Shown here one piece after another: positions 3,019 to 64,000 of a stretch of DNA of 64,000 bases. Position 1 is the stretch's first letter; the number at the start of each line of letters is the position of its first letter. The translations under genes were made by a program, and so were the position numbers. Under the pieces are notes generated by a model. That model did not search any database. It had not been told where the DNA came from and was given only the letters and a program-made list of their open reading frames with translations. This stretch comes from an uncultured Deferribacteres bacterium (GTDB lineage Bacteria; Zhuqueibacterota; JdFR-76; DREG01), in the NCBI GenBank assembly GCA_913009825.1, contig CAJVYQ010000005.1, forward strand, positions 1-64,000, written 5' to 3'.

Positions 3019-3234
3019 ATGGACAACACAGAATACAGAGCATTCAGGACGTTTGTCCAAAATAGAATCTATTCTGAATTTGGCAAACAGCCGTCGCGTT
3101 TTCGCAACTGGGACAAAAAAGCGCTGCGCTCTCTCTACGTGGAATATCTCAAGCCGCAATATCACATCGTAAGAAATAATCCGAAAATTTTTAAACTGCT
3201 TGAAGAAGTTCAGCGTCATCTGGAATACGATTAA
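3019..3234 (+). CDS. Small hypothetical protein
   Basis: A 71-residue frame rich in Arg, Lys, Phe and Tyr with no signal peptide or membrane segment. It is the most protein-like of three overlapping frames here, with spaced aromatic and charged residues such as LYVEYLKPQYHIVRNN. Upstream there is only a weak GGGTAAG in place of a Shine-Dalgarno. No family is recognised. It could be a genuine orphan or a chance frame; a frame on the opposite strand (2938-3219) competes. Confidence 0.4.
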   Translation: MDNTEYRAFRTFVQNRIYSEFGKQPSRFRNWDKKALRSLYVEYLKPQYHIVRNNPKIFKLLEEVQRHLEYD

Positions 3235-3443
3235 GTAAGCTTTCGCGAATGCTCTCGTGAAACTTGAAAGAAGTTGGTCACAGAATTGAAATGCCGCAGA
3301 AAAAAGTAAAAATCTTAATTCATTATATAATGACCAGTTGAAATCAATTCAATCGTAAGACTTTAATCCTTTGAAACAAATCGGTGATTTTCAGGTACTT
3401 TCACCAAAGAGAACAATTACAATATTTCATAACTTTTCACCAT

Positions 3444-3553
3444 TTTGTCATTCCGAACCCCAGTTTCATCGGGTGAGGAATCTCTTGCCAACAAACGTAC
3501 TTTTGGACACGAGATTCCTCATTTCACCGCCTGAGGTGGATTCATTCAGAAGA
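3444..3553. repeat. Degenerate dispersed repeat with GAGGAATCTC/GAGATTCCTC arms
   Basis: The intergenic stretch 3235-3721 carries a segment beginning GTCATTCCGAACCCC, with inverted arms TGAGGAATCTC and GAGATTCCTCA and inner GGTGA/TCACC-type pairing. This resembles the common GTCATTCCGAAC...GAGGAATC intergenic repeats of FCB genomes, here eroded. The rest of the stretch shows nothing else. Below it, ATGGAGATT is the ribosome site of the DUF3078 gene. Confidence 0.5.
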
Positions 3554-7279: not shown

Positions 7280-10200
7280 CTATTTCAACAACAACATTTT
7301 ACGGGATTGTGAAAATAAATTAACCTGTAAACGTAATATATAAATCCCGCTTGCCACACGATTACCCAAATTATCCAAACCGCCCCATCGATAAGTATAA
7401 TTACCCGGAGCTTGACTGCCCAGAAAAAGGGTGTTAATTTTACGCCCCAACTGGTCGTAGATGGAAAGCTCTACTTCACTATTCCCGGAGAGTTGGTAAC
7501 TGATATCAGTTGAGGGATTGAACGGATTGGGATAATTTTGCTGTAAGGCAAAGCCGCGCGGCAGCGGTTCCGAAAAAGTGGCGCCGATCCGGATGCCGGT
7601 CACCTCGCGTGTCAGGTCGAGAAAGGCCATGTAAAAACCGGGCTCGCTTGCGGTGGTGCTGGCGATGCCGTAGGCCAGATTCACATCCGTGGCAACGGGC
7701 TGCCAGCCGTCCTGCCAGCGGTAAATGACAATCGCCGCCGCTTCTCCGGCTTTAAGGGAATCGGCCTCGATGGTGATTCTGAGCTGTGTGCGCATATCGG
7801 AATTTTCCGGGAACGCTTGCAGCGACACCAGTGGGCTGGCCTGGTGCAGGGAATCCGGCAGCCCCTCCTGCGGCACCGGAAAGGGCGAAGTGGTTACGAT
7901 ATACTGCTTCGCCGTGGAACCGGTTTGCGGCAGCAAGCGAATGTTGTCTCTCGCTGCAATCAGTTCTTCGCCGGAATTTGGCAGCAGTGTGACATTCATC
8001 GGCAGGAAAAACGCCGTGTCGGTGCTGTCGGTGGCTCTGAAATACAGGCTGGCATTGCCATAGTCGCCTTCCGGCAGGGCCGCGCTGTAGACTGCAGCGG
8101 AGGTATTCAAGTCGATCACCTGCAGGTCGCCGGAGCCGCTGGAAATCTCCAACTGGGCAGCGCCGTTGAAGGCCTTATTGGCCGCGGCCGAAAACATCAA
8201 GCCGCCGTTGCTGTCGAACGAAACTTGCGGCAGCAGGGTATAGCTGCCCTGCACCGGCTGCAACTCGACGACAATTGCCTCTCCCTTTGCGGCGGATGTT
8301 TTGGCCAGCGCCGAACCCGTCACTTCAACTTCGGCGAATGAATAGCCACGGTGCCCGATTCGCCTCCAGGCAGCGCGCAGCTTATCACCGGTTTGCAGAC
8401 CGAGCGGCCGGATTTTGCCGCGATCGGCTCCATACAACACCGTTTTGCCTTGCAGAATAGTGCGTCCGTTCGCCTTGCCAGCGATAACCACAACCCCGGC
8501 AGCCGGCTGACCGGTTTCTTTGTCGACCATCAGGTAGGCCGGGCGCGGATCGTTGAACGATGAAGTTTTGACCACAAAATCCATCATTGCGTTGATGTCA
8601 AAGTCAGGATACCAAGGATCTTCGTTGGGACCGGTAACAGATTGATTGGCAGTAAGCCCCATGGCAGCCGGTGTTTTGATGGTGGCGTAAATCGCCCCAA
8701 AGTTGTTCTTGGGAATGGTGTCGAAACTGGCGTGCCAAAAGTCCCAGCAGGTCTTGCCGGTTTTGGCAAACTGAGCTGTTTGCTCATAACCGGAAATAAC
8801 AAATGCCGACATTTCGCTTGACATTCTCTGATTGAGTGGGCCACCATCCATGAATCCGTAATTGGTAAAAATATCGATTGTATTCCCTGCTGCGTTTTCG
8901 TATTCATCCCAAAAGCCAAAACCGTAATGGCCGAACTCGTGCACGATGGTCTGCACATCTACCAAGCTATAAAAATACAACGGTTCTTCGGCAAACAAGC
9001 TGTTGACGTTGTCATCTTTTGAACCGTAATGTTTAGGAGGTAGATTAATTGTGGCGTCCGTTTTGCTGGCTTTGCTGATGCCCGAAAGCGTGGCCAACGG
9101 CCATTGGGTGTTGTCGGCGTGGATACGGAGATCGGCATCTTCCCAATATTTCTTGTTATCATAAATTGCTATGGTCTGGAAGAAAGCCTGACCGTTGGAA
9201 ATGTCGTAAAGCTTGTTGCTGGCAAAACGGAATGCTGCTTTCAGATCGGCCACATAATCGTCGGAAGCCGGCCATTCGATGCTGACCAGCAGGTTGTATG
9301 CCAGCGAGGTGTGTTCCATGTAGGTGATGGTCGTGTCCAGCTTATTGGCGGATAATTTTGCCGCGTTAATGTTTCCCTCGTTGTTGATGTGGAGATTATC
9401 GCTGAAAAAGCGCAGCATCTGCCCGTCCAGGTCGTCGTGGTTGGCCTTTACGGCGTCGCGGGCGCCCAGGTCGACGCGCAGGAAAAAAGGATCGCCGGGG
9501 GCAAAATATTCCAGAGGCAACCCCAGCAATCCATCGTCATCACTGGTCAGATAGTTCACGAAAGTCAGCGGGTCTTCCTGTGCCGACAAATCGATCCGGT
9601 AGACGCCGAATTCCGTATTGGCAACCGGCTGCGGTTCGCGACCCAGGGAATCCTGCATCACTTTCACCAAAAGAACCTTGCTCGGCTCCTGCAGCTCGAG
9701 GTCGATTTCAGTTATAAAAGCATCTTGATAACCATTTTTATTCCCTTGCAGAGGAGAAGCGGTAGGAAAATTGTCGGAATAGGTTTTGCCGGTAATGAAG
9801 ACATGTCCATTTGGTCCCACAGCAATTGCACTGGCATATTCATCGCTGCTTCCGCCAACATAAGATGAAAAAAGAACACTTAACCCGTCGGAAGCGATTC
9901 CCGTCACAAAAGCATCGACCGAGCCTTGGTATGCGGCCTCCGTCGGTTTTTCCATCGGGAAATCTATGGATTGTGTCCGGCCGGTAACAAATGCATTGCC
10001 GTTTGCATCCACCGCAATATCATAGGCATAATCGGCTGCGCTGCCGCCCAGAAAAGTCGAAAACAAAACCTCAGAGCCATCGGCTGACAGCTTGGCGACA
10101 AATCCATCCGAATCGCCCCCGCCGTATGTCGGTTGAATTGCATTTGTGGTGTAAAAATTCCTATAGGTATATTGGGAAACACTTCCGGCGACATACACCT

Positions 10201-11806
10201 GTCCATCTTCATCTACCGCGATTCCGTAGCCGCCGGTTAATTTTGTGGAGAAAATTATAGTCGAAGCCTGGGGATTCATTTTGGTAACAAACCATCCCTT
10301 TGATTTCCGATACCCATTGACAATCGGAAAATCACTCGAATAGGAAAAACCGGTCAGATAAATATTGTCAGCATTATCCACGGCAATACCTTCGGCGTTT
10401 TCTCTGCCACTTCCGCCGAGAAAAGTCGAAAAGATAAAGGCGGAACCTTCGGAATTCAGTTTGGTAACAAAGGCATCATTTTCAGAGTCATTCCTGGTCG
10501 GTTGCATTGCGTTCGCCACCGGAAAATTGTCCGAGTTGGTTTCCCCGATGACACAGGCATTGCCGGACTGGTCCACCGCAATATCGCGGCCAAAGTCCGA
10601 TTCTGAACCGCCAAGATAAGTTGAGTAAACGAACGCCGATCCGTCAGAAGTGAGCTTTGTGATGAAACCATCCGCCTGGCCGCCGCCGAAATTTCCTTGC
10701 ACCGCGTTGTGTGTGGGAAAGTTATCCGATACGGTTGAACCGGTAACATAGGCGCTGCCCGCTGCATCCACGGCGATGCCAAAAATTGTTTCGGTGCTAT
10801 CGCCGCCGAGGTAGGTTGCATAAATCAGGGCCGAGCCATCGGGAGACAGTTTGGCAACAAAGGCGTCATAGTATCCCCAGAAATCGCTCTGCACTTTATT
10901 CTTTTGCGCGGCATTGTCAGTTACAGGAAAATTTGCTGTGCTTCCTGTAATATAAATAAAACCGTTTGCATCGATCGCGATGTCTTGGCTTTCGTCTCCG
11001 TTGGAGCCGCCGAGAAAAGTAGAATAAACCAGCACCGGATCGATCACCAGCGGCACGGATGCATCATAATCGCCGATCTCAAAGCCGAATGTATCGTTGC
11101 CGCGGGCAACGAACTGCGCTGCCACCGGCGTGCGCTCGCCTTCCATTTCCTGGTAGGCCACCGGCGCCTGCATGGTAATCTGGCGCGTTCCCACCTTAAC
11201 CAGTAGATCGCCGCTTTCTGTTATTCTTGCGGCTGTGCTTTTTTCAAAGAGAAGGGCGATTGCACCCGGGTCGGCCCCGGGCGAGACGTTGAAATCATAC
11301 TCCAACTTGCCATCCCGGCCGTAGTAAACCAGATCGATTCCGGGATAAACTTCAGTAAATTTAACCTTTTCATAGTTCGTGATATCTGTATGCCACTTTA
11401 AAGGATCATTGCCGATAAAATAATTTGACTTTGTTATCAGCTCATCAACACCTTCTGATCTAACACGTAGGTTGGCGTTGACAAGATGCATTGTTACGTT
11501 TACAAAATTAGTTTTTTGTCCTAACCGGTTGGGTTGCTGAAGTGACATTATTGTCTGGCCAGAACTAAGGGATAGTGCGCAAAACTTATCACGAAAGAGA
11601 AAATCTGTTCCGGGTTCTGCCTGCCCCATATTCTTCTCGAATCGCATCGGTAATTGATCGAATGAATTTAAGTATATTTTCTGCTGTTGATCTGTTTCTG
11701 TCTCCGAAAAATTCTTCAAAAAAACGAAAGCCAAAATACTAAAAAGGGCGATCAATGAGAGAATTGAAAAACTGACAGAACGCTGGTTAAAAATACAGTT
11801 AAACAT
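7280..11806 (-). CDS. Giant secreted SBBP-repeat protein with HEFGH metalloprotease-like motif and C-terminal sorting domain
   Basis: 1508 residues. Order: a hydrophobic N-terminal segment (SILSLIALFSILAFVFL); a DUF7948-type domain (about 55-260, including YPGIDLVYYGRDGKLEYDF); seven SBBP repeats (about 263-735) of the form STFLGGSxxDxxxDIAVDxxGNxYVTG; a middle region with HEFGHYGFGFWDEY at 956-969; further Ig-like segments; and a FlgD/type-A sorting domain at the end (LQQNYPNPFNPSTDISYQL ... ASGIYILRL). HExxH with a following DEY resembles CLCA-type or metzincin-like zinc peptidases. The tail implies outer-membrane export by a type IX-like route and surface anchoring. It is monocistronic, with long AT-rich DNA upstream. 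Protease activity is inference. Confidence 0.8.
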   Translation of the reverse strand: MFNCIFNQRSVSFSILSLIALFSILAFVFLKNFSETETDQQQKIYLNSFDQLPMRFEKNMGQAEPGTDFLFRDKFCALSLSSGQTIMSLQQPNRLGQKTNFVNVTMHLVNANLRVRSEGVDELITKSNYFIGNDPLKWHTDITNYEKVKFTEVYPGIDLVYYGRDGKLEYDFNVSPGADPGAIALLFEKSTAARITESGDLLVKVGTRQITMQAPVAYQEMEGERTPVAAQFVARGNDTFGFEIGDYDASVPLVIDPVLVYSTFLGGSNGDESQDIAIDANGFIYITGSTANFPVTDNAAQKNKVQSDFWGYYDAFVAKLSPDGSALIYATYLGGDSTETIFGIAVDAAGSAYVTGSTVSDNFPTHNAVQGNFGGGQADGFITKLTSDGSAFVYSTYLGGSESDFGRDIAVDQSGNACVIGETNSDNFPVANAMQPTRNDSENDAFVTKLNSEGSAFIFSTFLGGSGRENAEGIAVDNADNIYLTGFSYSSDFPIVNGYRKSKGWFVTKMNPQASTIIFSTKLTGGYGIAVDEDGQVYVAGSVSQYTYRNFYTTNAIQPTYGGGDSDGFVAKLSADGSEVLFSTFLGGSAADYAYDIAVDANGNAFVTGRTQSIDFPMEKPTEAAYQGSVDAFVTGIASDGLSVLFSSYVGGSSDEYASAIAVGPNGHVFITGKTYSDNFPTASPLQGNKNGYQDAFITEIDLELQEPSKVLLVKVMQDSLGREPQPVANTEFGVYRIDLSAQEDPLTFVNYLTSDDDGLLGLPLEYFAPGDPFFLRVDLGARDAVKANHDDLDGQMLRFFSDNLHINNEGNINAAKLSANKLDTTITYMEHTSLAYNLLVSIEWPASDDYVADLKAAFRFASNKLYDISNGQAFFQTIAIYDNKKYWEDADLRIHADNTQWPLATLSGISKASKTDATINLPPKHYGSKDDNVNSLFAEEPLYFYSLVDVQTIVHEFGHYGFGFWDEYENAAGNTIDIFTNYGFMDGGPLNQRMSSEMSAFVISGYEQTAQFAKTGKTCWDFWHASFDTIPKNNFGAIYATIKTPAAMGLTANQSVTGPNEDPWYPDFDINAMMDFVVKTSSFNDPRPAYLMVDKETGQPAAGVVVIAGKANGRTILQGKTVLYGADRGKIRPLGLQTGDKLRAAWRRIGHRGYSFAEVEVTGSALAKTSAAKGEAIVVELQPVQGSYTLLPQVSFDSNGGLMFSAAANKAFNGAAQLEISSGSGDLQVIDLNTSAAVYSAALPEGDYGNASLYFRATDSTDTAFFLPMNVTLLPNSGEELIAARDNIRLLPQTGSTAKQYIVTTSPFPVPQEGLPDSLHQASPLVSLQAFPENSDMRTQLRITIEADSLKAGEAAAIVIYRWQDGWQPVATDVNLAYGIASTTASEPGFYMAFLDLTREVTGIRIGATFSEPLPRGFALQQNYPNPFNPSTDISYQLSGNSEVELSIYDQLGRKINTLFLGSQAPGNYTYRWGGLDNLGNRVASGIYILRLQVNLFSQSRKMLLLK

Positions 11807-12492: not shown

Positions 12493-12693
12493 TCAGACCT
12501 CGTTAAATTTGATAAATATTAGGTTGAATAACCGGACAAAAATCATCATGAATTTGCACTATATATTGCGTAAGTACTTGTTTTTTAGTTTAAAGTCAAA
12601 CATGCAGTGTTCAATTATTCATGGATTTTCTCACAATTGACTAGTAAACAAGAACTTAATGAACAATAAAACACCTGATTTAACAAGGTCTGA
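12493..12693. mobile_element. Short inverted-repeat element, family A copy 1 (201 bp)
   Basis: Ends are TCAGACCTCGTTAAAT (12493-12508) and ATTTAACAAGGTCTGA (12678-12693), 16-bp inverted repeats with one mismatch. The 201 bp are nearly identical to 40571-40771, differing at only a few bases, and carry no plausible gene. This is the structure of a non-autonomous, MITE-like transposon. No clear target duplication is visible at this copy. Confidence 0.85.
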
Positions 12694-12852: not shown

Positions 12853-12928
12853 TGGTGAGCCTGGCAGGAATCGAACCTGCGACCAACGGCTTAAAAGGCC
12901 GCTGCTCTACCAGCTGAGCTACAGGCCC
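12853..12928 (-). tRNA. tRNA-Lys (UUU anticodon)
   Basis: A 76-base cloverleaf including an encoded CCA. The acceptor GGGCCTG pairs with CAGGCTC (one G-U). The D arm is GCTCAGCTGGTAGAGC, and the anticodon stem GCGGC/GCCGT closes the loop CTTTTAA with anticodon TTT at 12893-12895. The T arm is GCAGG-TTCGAAT-CCTGC. It lies downstream of purA on the same strand and ends in a strong terminator. Confidence 0.97.
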
Positions 12929-40131: not shown

Positions 40132-41109
40132 TACTTAAGAGCATCCAATACACGCTGAACAAACATATCTTCGGGAACCGCTCCCTCAAATGAAATAGTC
40201 TCATTCACAATGGTTTTGGGCGCCCCCATAACATTTTATTTTTAGGACAGATGATGGAATTCGGAAGCCTCAACCATGTCGGCAGTGACAAATTCACTTT
40301 CCAGCCTACATTATTCACAAACTTTTGCCACAAAGAGACTAAGTCATTAATAATATTGCAATTATGGCAACCCATTAATTAAAACTCAGTTTTTTTACGT
40401 ATTTTTCTATTTAAATGCAAATTTATATAACTTTTTGTTTATTATACCTTTGTGTCTTTCCTGCCCGATGCAGACGGGGTGCCTTCGCGGCGAATGAATT
40501 TTTCAGGCTAGAGAAATTTGATGCGCCAACAACACCGCCTTCGGGCAATACGGACATCTAAGGAGTAACATCAGACCTCGTTAAATTTGATAAATATTAG
40601 GTTGAATAACCGGACAAAAATCATCATGAATTTGCACTATATATTGCGTAAGTACTTGTTTTTTAGTTTAAAGTCAAACATGCAGTGTTCAATTATTCAT
40701 GGATTTTCTCACAATTGACTGGTAAACAAGAACTTAATGAGCAATAAAACACCTGATTTAACGAGGTCTGAACATAAACCTGAATACGTATCTGTTTATC
40801 AATTTTCTGAATCGACTGTTTGCTTTGTTCTGACAAACCGGATTCTCCCCTGGATACCATAATCTTTTTCCTTCTTGACCACTGTCGCCGGGATTTTATT
40901 TGTTTTGTATTTTTCTGCTTCAGATTTGTTTACCTGAAAATTATAAGCTTGAACCTTCACTTTATCCGACAGCTCGGAGACTTCTGTCTGGTTTCCCGGC
41001 ACCACATACATTCCAGTTCCCGGCTGAAATTGATAAGGGAAACCTCCCTTTCCAACTCGTTTAAACGCTCACGTATGGGACCCTTATCGGCCTTCTGAAT
41101 AAGCGCCAT
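40132..41109 (-). pseudogene. Protein disulfide oxidoreductase (two-thioredoxin-fold PDO/glutaredoxin-like), multiply interrupted
   Basis: Begins at ATG 41109 behind CAGGAG. MALIQKADKGPIRERLNELE is followed by SRELECMWCRE, the first CxxC. A frameshift leads into SELSDKVKVQAYNFQVNKSE and IPATVVKKEKDYGI; later KIDKQIRIQVYV runs up to the family A element (40571-40771). Beyond it VTP, a one-base insertion, and CPYCPKAVLLAHQISLA give the second active site. About 195 bp of foreign AT-rich sequence follows. Then come ESEFVTADMVEASEFHHLS, two stops, and NVMGAPKTIVNETISFEGAV to the end. The order matches full-length PDO proteins, so this is one gene broken by two insertions, at least two frameshifts and stops. 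Confidence 0.82.
40571..40771. mobile_element. Short inverted-repeat element, family A copy 2 (201 bp), inside the PDO gene
   Basis: Perfect 16-bp terminal inverted repeats TCAGACCTCGTTAAAT/ATTTAACGAGGTCTGA. It is flanked by ACA on both sides. Removing the element and one ACA restores the coding sequence for IQVYVTP of the interrupted PDO gene in one frame, which proves the ends and a 3-bp target duplication. Same length as copy 1. Confidence 0.9.
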
Positions 41110-45668: not shown

Positions 45669-45826
45669 GTGTCTGTCCGAAAATTCCCCAAAATATTATC
45701 ATTCCGGCCTGTCTGCACAGGCAGGCAATTTTTAAGCCGCCTGCCTGTTGCAGACAGGGAATCTACTTAAAAGCAGCAATGGATTCCCACTGAAAGAATG
45801 CGGGAATGACAAATTCGGACAGACAC
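45669..45826. mobile_element. Short inverted-repeat element, family C copy 1 (about 158 bp)
   Basis: Ends GTGTCTGTCCGAA (45669-45681) and TTCGGACAGACAC (45814-45826) are exact inverted repeats. The interior has CCTGTCTGCACAGGCAGG palindromes and GGGAATGAC, and no gene. It matches 55343-55463 over most of its length, with about 37 bp extra in the middle. It lies between the M14-like and GMC genes; no clean target duplication is seen at this copy. Confidence 0.8.
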
Positions 45827-45926
45827 TAATTATAGTATATACAGATAACTGAAAATTCAACACAAATATTCCTGCCGGCTATTCAGCGAATCGCCCTATA
45901 AGCGCTCGACTCGGATATAAACAAAT

Positions 45927-55233: not shown

Positions 55234-55627
55234 CAATTTTGAATTAATCCTTCGTCGTTCCTTGTTCCATAATTCATGTTCAATCTGAATCATGAACTGT
55301 GAACCAGATATGGGCGACATTTTTTTTAACCAGTCTAATTCGTGTCTGTCCGAAAATACCCACGATATTATCATTCCGGCATGTCTGCACAGGCAGGCAA
55401 TCTGCTTGAAGGCAGCAATGGATTCCCGCTAAAAGCATGCGGGAATGACAAATTCGGACAGCCTCTAATTCGACCTTTAAACGGCCTGTTTCCTGACAAA
55501 GTTTAGCTTGTAATTTCTCGTTCTTAATACTGGAACCGGAAGATGAATTCGTGGAAAATATATCTTTAATTCCATCTTGAAGTTGTTTCTTCCAATGAGC
55601 AATTTGATTGGTGTGAATACCACTCAA
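55234..55627 (-). pseudogene. IS3-family transposase OrfA remnant, interrupted by a family C element
   Basis: From about 55627, SGIHTNQIAHWKKQLQDGI and DIFST followed by KNEKLQAKLCQETGRLKVEL match the OrfA motifs HxxQIxxWKKxLxxG and LYxxIGxLxVELDWLKK. The family C element (55343-55463) interrupts after VELE. Beyond it ELDWLKKMSPISGSQF continues the same protein until the frame is lost near thiI. No OrfB remains. Confidence 0.8.
55343..55463. mobile_element. Short inverted-repeat element, family C copy 2 (121 bp), inside IS3 orfA
   Basis: Ends TGTCTGTCCGAA and TTCGGACAGCC. TCTAATTCG occurs on both sides (55334-55342 and 55464-55472). Deleting the element and one copy restores KVELDWLKK of the interrupted IS3 orfA, so this is a 9-bp target duplication. 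The interior matches copy 1 at 45669-45826. Confidence 0.88.
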
Positions 55628-58230: not shown

Positions 58231-58549
58231 AAATGTAGTGGATAAATAAAATCGCGTGATTGTTCTTCAGAAGATCAGTGACTAAAATTACAAGTGCCTA
58301 AAGTGACCTAAAATTAAAAATTGCCGGTATTTTTATTGGGTGATCGATAATCAATTGCGTAAATAGCCGCGCAACACGATGCAAGTGGTGAAAGCCAGTA
58401 ATTTGTTCTTCAGCTTAATTCTTCCTTGAAAATCGGGTTTAAATCTTTGAGCGCTCTTTAGGGCCCAGATCTTTCGGGATCCTTTTTGTTAATAGCCTGT
58501 GGGTTTACTTTCAGGCGGTGAGAAAACGAAAAAAAATAAAGATAAAAGT
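58231..58549. other. AT-rich intergenic region with GTGACTAAAAT/GTGCCTAAAGT repeats
   Basis: Repeat strings at 58274-58315 (CAGTGACTAAAATTACAAG, GTGCCTAAAGTGACC). The rest shows no gene. It ends in AAAAGT, the target duplication of the IS element. Confidence 0.5.
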
Positions 58550-60493
58550 GACGCATTCGTAAAAAGTAAAATCACTATTTGAAATATTTTAGCCAAATTT
58601 GACTATTGAGATCTAATTTAATCCTAATTCACTGATTTTTTATTGTTCTTCGAAAATTTCGATTTTATTTCCCTCTGATTTGTGCGGAGACAAGTAAATT
58701 ATCACCCAATTAAGCAACATTCAGGGCAATTTCTCTATTTTCGGGCACACTAATCCCATGTTGTAATTGATACTGTGCTGCTCTAAATAGATTTATTCCC
58801 AGAGCCTTTAACCTTGCAGCATAACTAATTTTTGGTAACCCTCGATAATTTAATCGTCTGGCCCCGGTCATATGGATATATCGGGAATTAGTAGCTTCTA
58901 TACCTGACCGATAACGATATTTTTCTTTGAACTCTTTACTCTGTTCATATTGTCGGCGAAGCATCGTGTGAATTTCTTCTCTGGTATAGTTTAAAAGATA
59001 ACCCGATTTCCCTGGTCTTACCGGACAGATGTCCTGACCCGGACAATTTCCGCAGAACGATTCTGACCAGATCGCAGTAATAGAACCTTTTTTGTTATAT
59101 TTTATCTTCTCTGGTTTATGTCCACAACGACATTTCCGAATTTCTTCTGTTTGTTCATCTACTGTGAAAACCGACAAATCTTTTTGGGGCTTTCTACCTG
59201 GTACCGGTGCGATCAAATCCACACCATATTTTTTTGCCTTTTGGTTGTTTGTTTCACTCCCATAAGAGGTGTCGGCGGCCAGTTGGTCGGGTAATAAATC
59301 TCTGTCTTTGACATCTGCTAAAGCAGGCTCCAGAGCGCCACTATCATGTTTATGAGCCGGTTCTACCTCTACATAAGTAAGCAATTCCAGTGAGGGTTTG
59401 TCGGATTTCTCTTGGCTTGCTCCAGGCTCTCCCTTCGTTTTAGGCGTGTATGTTTCCATGATTTGAACCTGATAACCCTGTCCTTTATGACCATCATAAG
59501 TCGCATCGGCATCCGATGGATTCTGCAGACTATCTGATGAAATCTCACTGGATTCTTTGACAATGATCTTATCTTCCTCAATGCGACATTGCTCGGAAAA
59601 CACCCGCTGAAGAAGCGTATAACTATACATCGAAACTACACAGTCATGTTCAGAAAAATGGCTAAGCAAGGTATGTAAATCGGTTGCAATTTCTTCCAAG
59701 CGTTTACGGGAACCGGATGGCTTTACATTACCAAAATAAGTATCATCTTCTTCTTTCTCATAACGTACCCGCAACTCTTGCAATGAGGAATCGAAATATA
59801 AATCCTTGTGATGACGTTTTAAATTCTTTAAAAATGTGGTTATTGTGCGACTTAATAAACGCACCCGCCCTAACTGAGCCATGTTGGACTGAATATGAAC
59901 TGAATCAAGACGTTGTAAACGACTATCTACATGATAAACGTCAGCCAACTTATCGGCTGATTTCGAAAATGTCTCTTTCGCTAAGTTATCATTAACCAAG
60001 ATATTTCGCATGCTCCACAATGTCTTCAGTGATACAACATGATCCTTTGGATTAAAACTGTCTAACGCGTAATGCCATTGTTCATTAAATGCCAATTGAT
60101 CTCGTGTCTCGATGTCGCTTAAATCAAACACTTGTTGAAATACGCACGCTCCAACCACCGTAACTAATTCTTTCGTCGGACGACCCATCGTTTTAGAGAA
60201 GTGTTGACTGACCGCATGTATCGGTAAGGTCTCTAAAAGATGATCTCGAAACACTCCCGCCCACGAGGATTTGAGAAGTTTGATCTTTCGTTCATTTAAA
60301 ATGCCACCCCAAGATTCCATGCCGGGGAAACATGAATTGTCACGTGTTTTAATCTCTACCATTCTTTATCTTATCCTTCTGTTTTATATGATGATAAGAT
60401 AAGTCTTTTTATTGTTAAATGCAATAGCTATTATTGTTTAACTTAATTATTATTAATTGCTTAGAATAGTTTATGACTTTTTACGAATGCATC
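58550..60493. mobile_element. Complete IS1182-family insertion sequence (1944 bp)
   Basis: Terminal inverted repeats GACGCATTCGTAAAAAGT (58550-58567) and ACTTTTTACGAATGCATC (60476-60493) differ at one base. AAAAGT flanks both sides (58544-58549 and 60494-60499), a 6-bp target duplication. The element holds one intact transposase gene and inserted into one of the AAAGTGACTAAAGT repeats. This is the only full insertion sequence in the window. Confidence 0.88.
58710..60362 (-). CDS. IS1182-family transposase
   Basis: 550 residues. The N-terminal DUF772-type domain (HFSKTMGRPTKELVTVVGAC) is followed by the DDE core: QRLDSVHIQSNM, then PDQLAADTSYGSETN (second Asp), and EKYRYRSGIEATNSRYIHMT, GARRLNYRGLPKI (Glu and the conserved C-terminal motif). 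A Cys-rich patch (CGHK, CGNCPGQDICPVR) is typical for the family. Uninterrupted and probably active, able to act on its own 18-bp ends. Confidence 0.93.
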   Translation of the reverse strand: MVEIKTRDNSCFPGMESWGGILNERKIKLLKSSWAGVFRDHLLETLPIHAVSQHFSKTMGRPTKELVTVVGACVFQQVFDLSDIETRDQLAFNEQWHYALDSFNPKDHVVSLKTLWSMRNILVNDNLAKETFSKSADKLADVYHVDSRLQRLDSVHIQSNMAQLGRVRLLSRTITTFLKNLKRHHKDLYFDSSLQELRVRYEKEEDDTYFGNVKPSGSRKRLEEIATDLHTLLSHFSEHDCVVSMYSYTLLQRVFSEQCRIEEDKIIVKESSEISSDSLQNPSDADATYDGHKGQGYQVQIMETYTPKTKGEPGASQEKSDKPSLELLTYVEVEPAHKHDSGALEPALADVKDRDLLPDQLAADTSYGSETNNQKAKKYGVDLIAPVPGRKPQKDLSVFTVDEQTEEIRKCRCGHKPEKIKYNKKGSITAIWSESFCGNCPGQDICPVRPGKSGYLLNYTREEIHTMLRRQYEQSKEFKEKYRYRSGIEATNSRYIHMTGARRLNYRGLPKISYAARLKALGINLFRAAQYQLQHGISVPENREIALNVA

Positions 60494-60613
60494 AAAAGTG
60501 ACTAAAGTTTATAAAACAAGATTAAAGAGCGAAGATTAAAAACCATTAAAACTATATGGCTACTGATAAGTCTGCAATTGCACAAAATTTGTAGTGAATT
60601 TGTCGAAGAATTA

Positions 60614-63648: not shown

Positions 63649-63988
63649 TTATTTTGGAATTTTTAATTTTGGCTTTGTTTTTGAATTTTTAGCAACTTTA
63701 GTTGAGATTGAACCAAGAATTTTCTTTAGCTGGAAGACTCATCTATCAGTCGGGCAGTTTTGGTCTTATCCGCTATATTAGTTGCTAAAATTAATCTCAC
63801 TAGTAATTTGACTCTCTCATTTCTTCTAACGATATATCCACCTTACTTTTAAAGTCAGCTCTTGATGAAGCAGCTTGCGCCTCTTCGTAATTAGTGCCTG
63901 AACGAAAAGTATCTAAATTGTATATCAAACATCTTGTTTGAATTATAATCTTATTGAAAAGAAGGAAACTAAACAGTTTATAAAACAA
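63649..63988 (-). pseudogene. Four-helix-bundle (23S rRNA IVP-type) protein, broken
   Basis: SGTNYEEAQAASSRADFKSK then DISLEEMRESNY is the family's RSGxxxGANYEEAQAAxSxADFxxK...ExRExxYWLRL signature. A shift at the W gives LVRLILATNIADKTKTARLI then DESS, and another shift QLKKILGSISTKVAKNSKT to the stop. At least two frameshifts; the N-terminal helix is also unlike the family. The gene may extend past the window end. Confidence 0.7.
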
Positions 63989-64000
63989 GCAAGATGCATG

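Follow-up and report, generated by a model that had tools for sequence, protein, structure and literature searches.

The stretch of DNA analysed here (‘the window’) is 64,000 nucleotides long and belongs to a 5.1-Mb draft genome of the KSB1-type phylum. On its minus strand, at 40143–41094, TIGR02187 matches and translations mark the apparent remains of a gene for a protein disulfide oxidoreductase (PDO). Within these remains, in the plus orientation at 40572–40770, lies a 199-bp element, ‘copy 2’, of the form CAGACCTCGTTAAAT ... ATTTAACGAGGTCTG. Its left terminal inverted repeat (40572–40586, plus strand) is conserved in other copies and other genomes, and the right repeat (40756–40770, minus strand) is its perfect complement. 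A search that combined the end with a sub-terminal motif placed GGACA at +41 (40612–40616, plus strand), at the left end only. The element is bordered on both sides by AACAT, the two copies of a 5-bp target duplication (40567–40571 and 40771–40775, plus strand). ‘Copy 1’, also 199 bp and in the plus orientation, is situated at 12494–12692, between a 1508-aa ORF (7280–11806, minus strand) and a tRNA gene (12856–12928, minus strand). The window also contains an intact insertion sequence of the IS1182 family (58549–60494), with a 550-aa transposase, 19-bp ends (TGACGCATTCGTAAAAAGT) and the flanks AAAG / AAAG, and a match to the Acido-Lenti-1 RNA (RF01687; 55792–55836) of 44 bits, above the gathering score.

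The TIGR02187 matches fall at 40143–40307, 40762–40863, 40835–40987 and 40984–41094, all on the minus strand. Because this homology is scattered over at least four segments that differ in frame and have stops between them, the target of copy 2 appears to be a decayed second PDO gene; a full-length PDO is encoded elsewhere in the genome (C52). Judged from the sequence, the locus would be either a pseudogene or a gene disfigured by indel errors in the draft. An earlier reading of the window, made from its sequence only, proposed that copy 2 splits a coding sequence and that excision of the element together with one duplication restores ‘exactly the expected PDO protein’. Excision does leave IQVY and VTP contiguous in the same frame, and copy 2 does lie inside PDO homology, but the locus around it appears decayed and the expected protein does not result. 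The same reading described two near-identical units, at 12493–12693 and 40571–40771. These are present, and the two copies are 98.5% identical (1.5% of positions differ).

The element is widespread in its host. BLAST against the draft genome returned 42 matches distributed over many contigs, or about 40 copies if the pieces of one that another insertion has split are counted together. Of these, 27 are full-length, and several others are truncated or stop at contig ends. The terminal 15-mer, with up to one mismatch allowed, matched 66 times, against 0 for a reversed-pattern control, and the number of repeats is far beyond chance. Most copies are 94–100% identical to copy 2. The full copies differ from their consensus mostly by 1–11 changes (median about 2%), apart from one with an internal duplication, which differs by 27, and variants common to groups of copies in the 27-copy alignment mark sub-lineages. 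Near-consensus copies and shared variants together suggest that the element spread in a fairly recent burst, to which some older copies have been added. Two copies (L021 and L024, on C51 and C45) lie in about 800 bp of common surroundings, 96% identical, and represent a duplicated segment. Most of the other full copies do not interrupt long reading frames; L018 is inside an open stretch of 253 codons, close to the N-terminal end. The flanks average 36% G+C. No copies were found when 81 other genomes of the phylum, two of them from the same family, were searched, and comparison with plasmid and phage records gave no significant match. The sequence-only reading had envisaged a gene-less mobile element, recently copied and driven from elsewhere. 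This is borne out by the absence of any ORF of note within it, by the roughly 40 copies, several of them very recent, and by the lack of any counterpart at the same place in relatives.

The ends, as distinct from the whole element, do occur in other genomes. A phylum-wide search that allowed one mismatch found the same end in four (G069, G081, G053 and G075); other single matches were taken as chance. In G069 the element with these ends is 211 bp long and has a TACTG duplication; in G081, by reading of the sequence, it is about 0.4 kb, with ATTCG on both sides. When the end was combined with GGACA, the motif was found at exactly +41 in the present genome, G075 and G053, and at +40 in G081; the reversed-pattern control gave 0 in those four genomes. 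Two further genomes of the phylum have the combination at other spacings, which we took as chance. Matches in viral contigs with paired ends 2.4–2.6 kb apart (L142, L152 and L166) were dismissed likewise, as they lie inside phage genes, and TCAGACCGGCTTAAAT sites in the present genome proved to be part of a different palindromic repeat.

A full-length element with these ends was also sought. The present assembly contains neither a partner element with both ends nor an intact partner transposase, and no genome searched contains a complete autonomous element. The best candidate is in G075 (KSB1 isolate BS750m-G10), where the stop codon of a 405-aa ORF on C258 lies 63 bp from an end of this type, which itself interrupts what reads as an integrase-like gene. 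This transposase-bearing element has one end and the sub-terminal motif in common with ours. The other end is missing from the sequence because the 5′ part of the gene meets another repeat where the contig stops. Searches for the protein found only the G075 record itself among genome contigs, nothing in viral contigs, and nothing significant in plasmids or phages. The 405-aa protein has no significant match in Pfam, NCBIfam or PDB, and its single-sequence AlphaFold model (mean pLDDT 39.5) is too poor to use. It gives no match to Transposase_29 (PF21804), and we class it as ‘related to’ that family rather than a member. Several comparisons point to this relationship. A Streptomyces ‘putative transposase’, reached via a weak plasmid match, matches PF21804 at 5.6e-22, and two colinear stretches of it can be aligned with the G075 protein. 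The PF21804 transposase of G075 itself (C196), which is nearly complete, aligns with residues 142–397. Both BLAST scores exceed those of all 200 locally shuffled controls, and profile–profile comparison gives a probability of 94.7%. By eye, in translation, the C196 blocks VYSGYKA, FDRESYSP and RWTQENFFKY resemble AYSGKEK, VSDRESW and RWGASENGFK of the 405-aa protein. On these alignments, the G075 protein is judged homologous to Transposase_29 proteins through intermediate sequences, rather than by a direct match to PF21804.

Remnants of both kinds of enzyme occur in the present genome. Two fragments are of the G075 type (C78:5–130, 64% identical, E 1e-11; C29:17638–17766, 51%, E 1e-5); within the sequence read, neither is flanked by the 199-bp element's ends. 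One is the C-terminal fragment of a typical PF21804 element (C18:38306–38524, L289), with the end CAGAACTCCTGACCCATC. The corresponding element in G075 (C196:13718–15381, L290) is a nearly complete Transposase_29 insertion sequence with a frame break, and has CAGAACTCCTGACC at both sides. The product of the G075 gene beside our type of end is homologous to theirs across the C-terminal region, RWGASENGFK block included, and the ends of the C196 and C18 elements also begin CAGA.CTC (CAGAACTCCTGACC). The end of the 199-bp element, CAGACCTC, is of the same general type but otherwise different in sequence, and the G075 protein is too divergent for the Pfam model. The transposase that moved the element—its ‘driver’—probably belonged to this divergent, Transposase_29-like group. 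It would have been encoded by an insertion sequence with the ends CAGACCTCGTTRAAT and GGACA at +41.

Two intact insertion sequences of this genome, the IS1182 element in the window and an IS1634 element on C40, might have driven the element instead of a lost relative. Both possess full-length transposases, and IS1634-family elements make duplications of 5–6 bp. Their ends, TGACGCATTCGTAAAAAGT and CTAGCGGAAGTTTCCTA, however, have nothing in common with CAGACCTCGTTAAAT, and this makes either an improbable source. It is somewhat less probable still that the element is a Tn3-derived miniature element (TIME). AT-rich duplications of 5 bp, of the kind seen here, are also made by transposons of the Tn3 family, but Tn3 ends are about 38 bp long and start GGGG, whereas those of our element extend for only 15–16 bp (CAGACCTCGTTAAAT) and start CAGACC. 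The gene found beside the same ends in G075, moreover, is Transposase_29-like, and not Tn3.

The extent of the element and the size of its duplication follow from comparison of copies. Alignment of the 27 full copies, together with analysis of the target duplications, sets the true boundaries at CAGACC...GGTCTG. The terminal inverted repeats are 15–16 bp and perfect in most of these copies. With this 199-bp boundary, the 5-mers on the two sides agree exactly in 16 of 26 testable copies, and the AT-rich target has the consensus AANTT. Counting the duplicated locus L021/L024 once, exact duplications number 15 of 25; when right flanks were permuted among copies (100,000 permutations) the mean was 1.8 and the maximum 8. 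Ten testable copies have no exact duplication, and their non-matching flanks could reflect recombination between copies, or decay. The sequence-only reading had arrived instead at a 201-bp element with 16-bp inverted ends and a 3-bp duplication, and had considered the ends and the target size provable. The case for this is that the 201-bp unit of copy 2 does have ACA immediately to its left and right. Most targets, furthermore, begin with A and finish with T, and so T...A resembles the tips of an element. At copy 2, excising the element with AACAT, or 201 bp with ACA, leaves identical sequence. Given the AANTT consensus, the outer T and A were taken for such tips, and the middle three bases for the duplication. 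Copy L022 refutes this: it has GAGTT on both sides, and the base after GGTCTG is G, not A, which places the outermost T and A in the duplication and not the element. The outer T or A is also missing at L006 and L008, and in the G069 and G081 elements these positions, within their 5-bp duplications, are occupied by other bases. We consider the 3-bp alternative very unlikely. Ends and target size had each been misjudged by one base per side; the inverted ends stood up, with all 16 bp perfect on both sides of copy 2 and one mismatch at the right end of copy 1. Copy 1, with the flanks ATTTT / AATTA and no matching duplication, cannot fix the ends. The pitfall is a general one: where the first and last bases of a target are fixed they mimic element tips, and too few bases are counted as duplicated.

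A palindromic repeat or RNA belonging to the host itself (REP/ERIC-like) is the least credible alternative. Both strands of the whole 199-bp unit do fold strongly (z about −4.4 and −4.7), but two 150-base sub-stretches, each without one end, gain nothing over shuffled sequence, no Rfam family matches there, relatives have no copies, and target duplications are present. Since the fold is lost from the sub-stretches, its strength is tied to the inverted ends. A role as RNA or in regulation was considered and, from sub-stretch folding and Rfam, is unsupported.

The element is almost certainly a MITE with a 5-bp duplication. At 199 bp, and with no overlapping ORF longer than 55 aa, it lies within the bounds for MITEs (below about 600 bp, and without a transposase gene), and it has terminal inverted repeats, a target-site duplication and multiple dispersed, similar copies. 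By every structural test applied, except that of a completely sequenced autonomous partner, it is one. Bacterial MITEs have been described before, for example Chunjie of Geobacter uraniireducens (178–235 bp, 38 copies), and QMITE1 and QMITE2 of Coxiella; PMC10969869 reviews them. Ours resembles elements of this sort in being short and gene-less, with inverted ends, a duplicated target and no driver inside, and in having tens of copies, mostly between genes. It is unlike them in its end sequence and its 5-bp AANTT target.

The best explanation overall, to which we assign a probability of roughly 85%, is a family of MITEs moved by a transposase supplied in trans, probably from an insertion sequence of the divergent Transposase_29-like type. 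In mechanistic terms, the MITE would be an internally deleted, non-autonomous, 199-bp DNA transposon. A DDE transposase supplied in trans would bind the 15-bp inverted ends, mobilize the unit by excising or copying it, through cut-and-paste or related DDE chemistry, and insert it where AANTT had been cut with a 5-bp stagger. The 5-bp duplication would arise as the resulting gaps were repaired. The scheme takes as its basis features that are observed—ends, length, 5-bp duplication, target preference, dispersal, near-identical copies, absence from relatives and no coding capacity—and supplies a presumed enzyme, its presumed chemistry and a presumed role for GGACA. Because the assembly contains only fragments of the enzyme, the MITE may be immobile here now, or an intact copy of the transposase may be hidden in assembly gaps.

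The mechanism is an ordinary one. The transposase branch behind it is modestly interesting and unrecognised: current Pfam and NCBIfam models miss the group, and such elements are probably under-annotated as a result. Ends of the form CAGACCTCGTYRAAT, GGACA at +41, a 5-bp duplication and a divergent Transposase_29-like protein could together define an unrecognised insertion-sequence group of the KSB1-type phylum, present mostly as gene-less derivatives that have outlived their transposase, although we offer this only tentatively. No description of this MITE family turned up in the papers searched, which describe no such mobile-element family for this uncultured phylum. Here the ends, target and duplication of one were fixed from sequence alone.

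Nested short elements of other kinds abound in the host genome. Another family of short repeats, AACGAAAAGTATCTAAATTG...ACTTTTCGTT, of roughly 110–130 bp, is represented in the window at 63900–64000 and elsewhere (L066, L090, L015 and L232); one copy lies in the C29 transposase fragment, and one beside a copy of the MITE. The split MITE copy (L060, on C30) is broken by inserted DNA, about 263 bp long (about 3193–3455), with an 8-bp duplication, GCAGTGTT. This insert, with the ends GTAATCGTTCACC / GGTGAACTGTTAC, is another gene-less element, distinct from the MITE. Dispersed repeats ending in TTCGGACAGACACTAATT (45681–45831 and 55353–55470 in the window; L084) probably form another MITE family, since similar sequence occurs as inverted ends in L084. 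Finally, a palindromic unit, CTTCGACAAGCTCAGG...TCAGACCGGCTTAAATAG, and the motif ACCTGAATAGTTAC, which adjoins many insertions, are further repeats noticed among L080–L084 and the flanks in L010 and L027.
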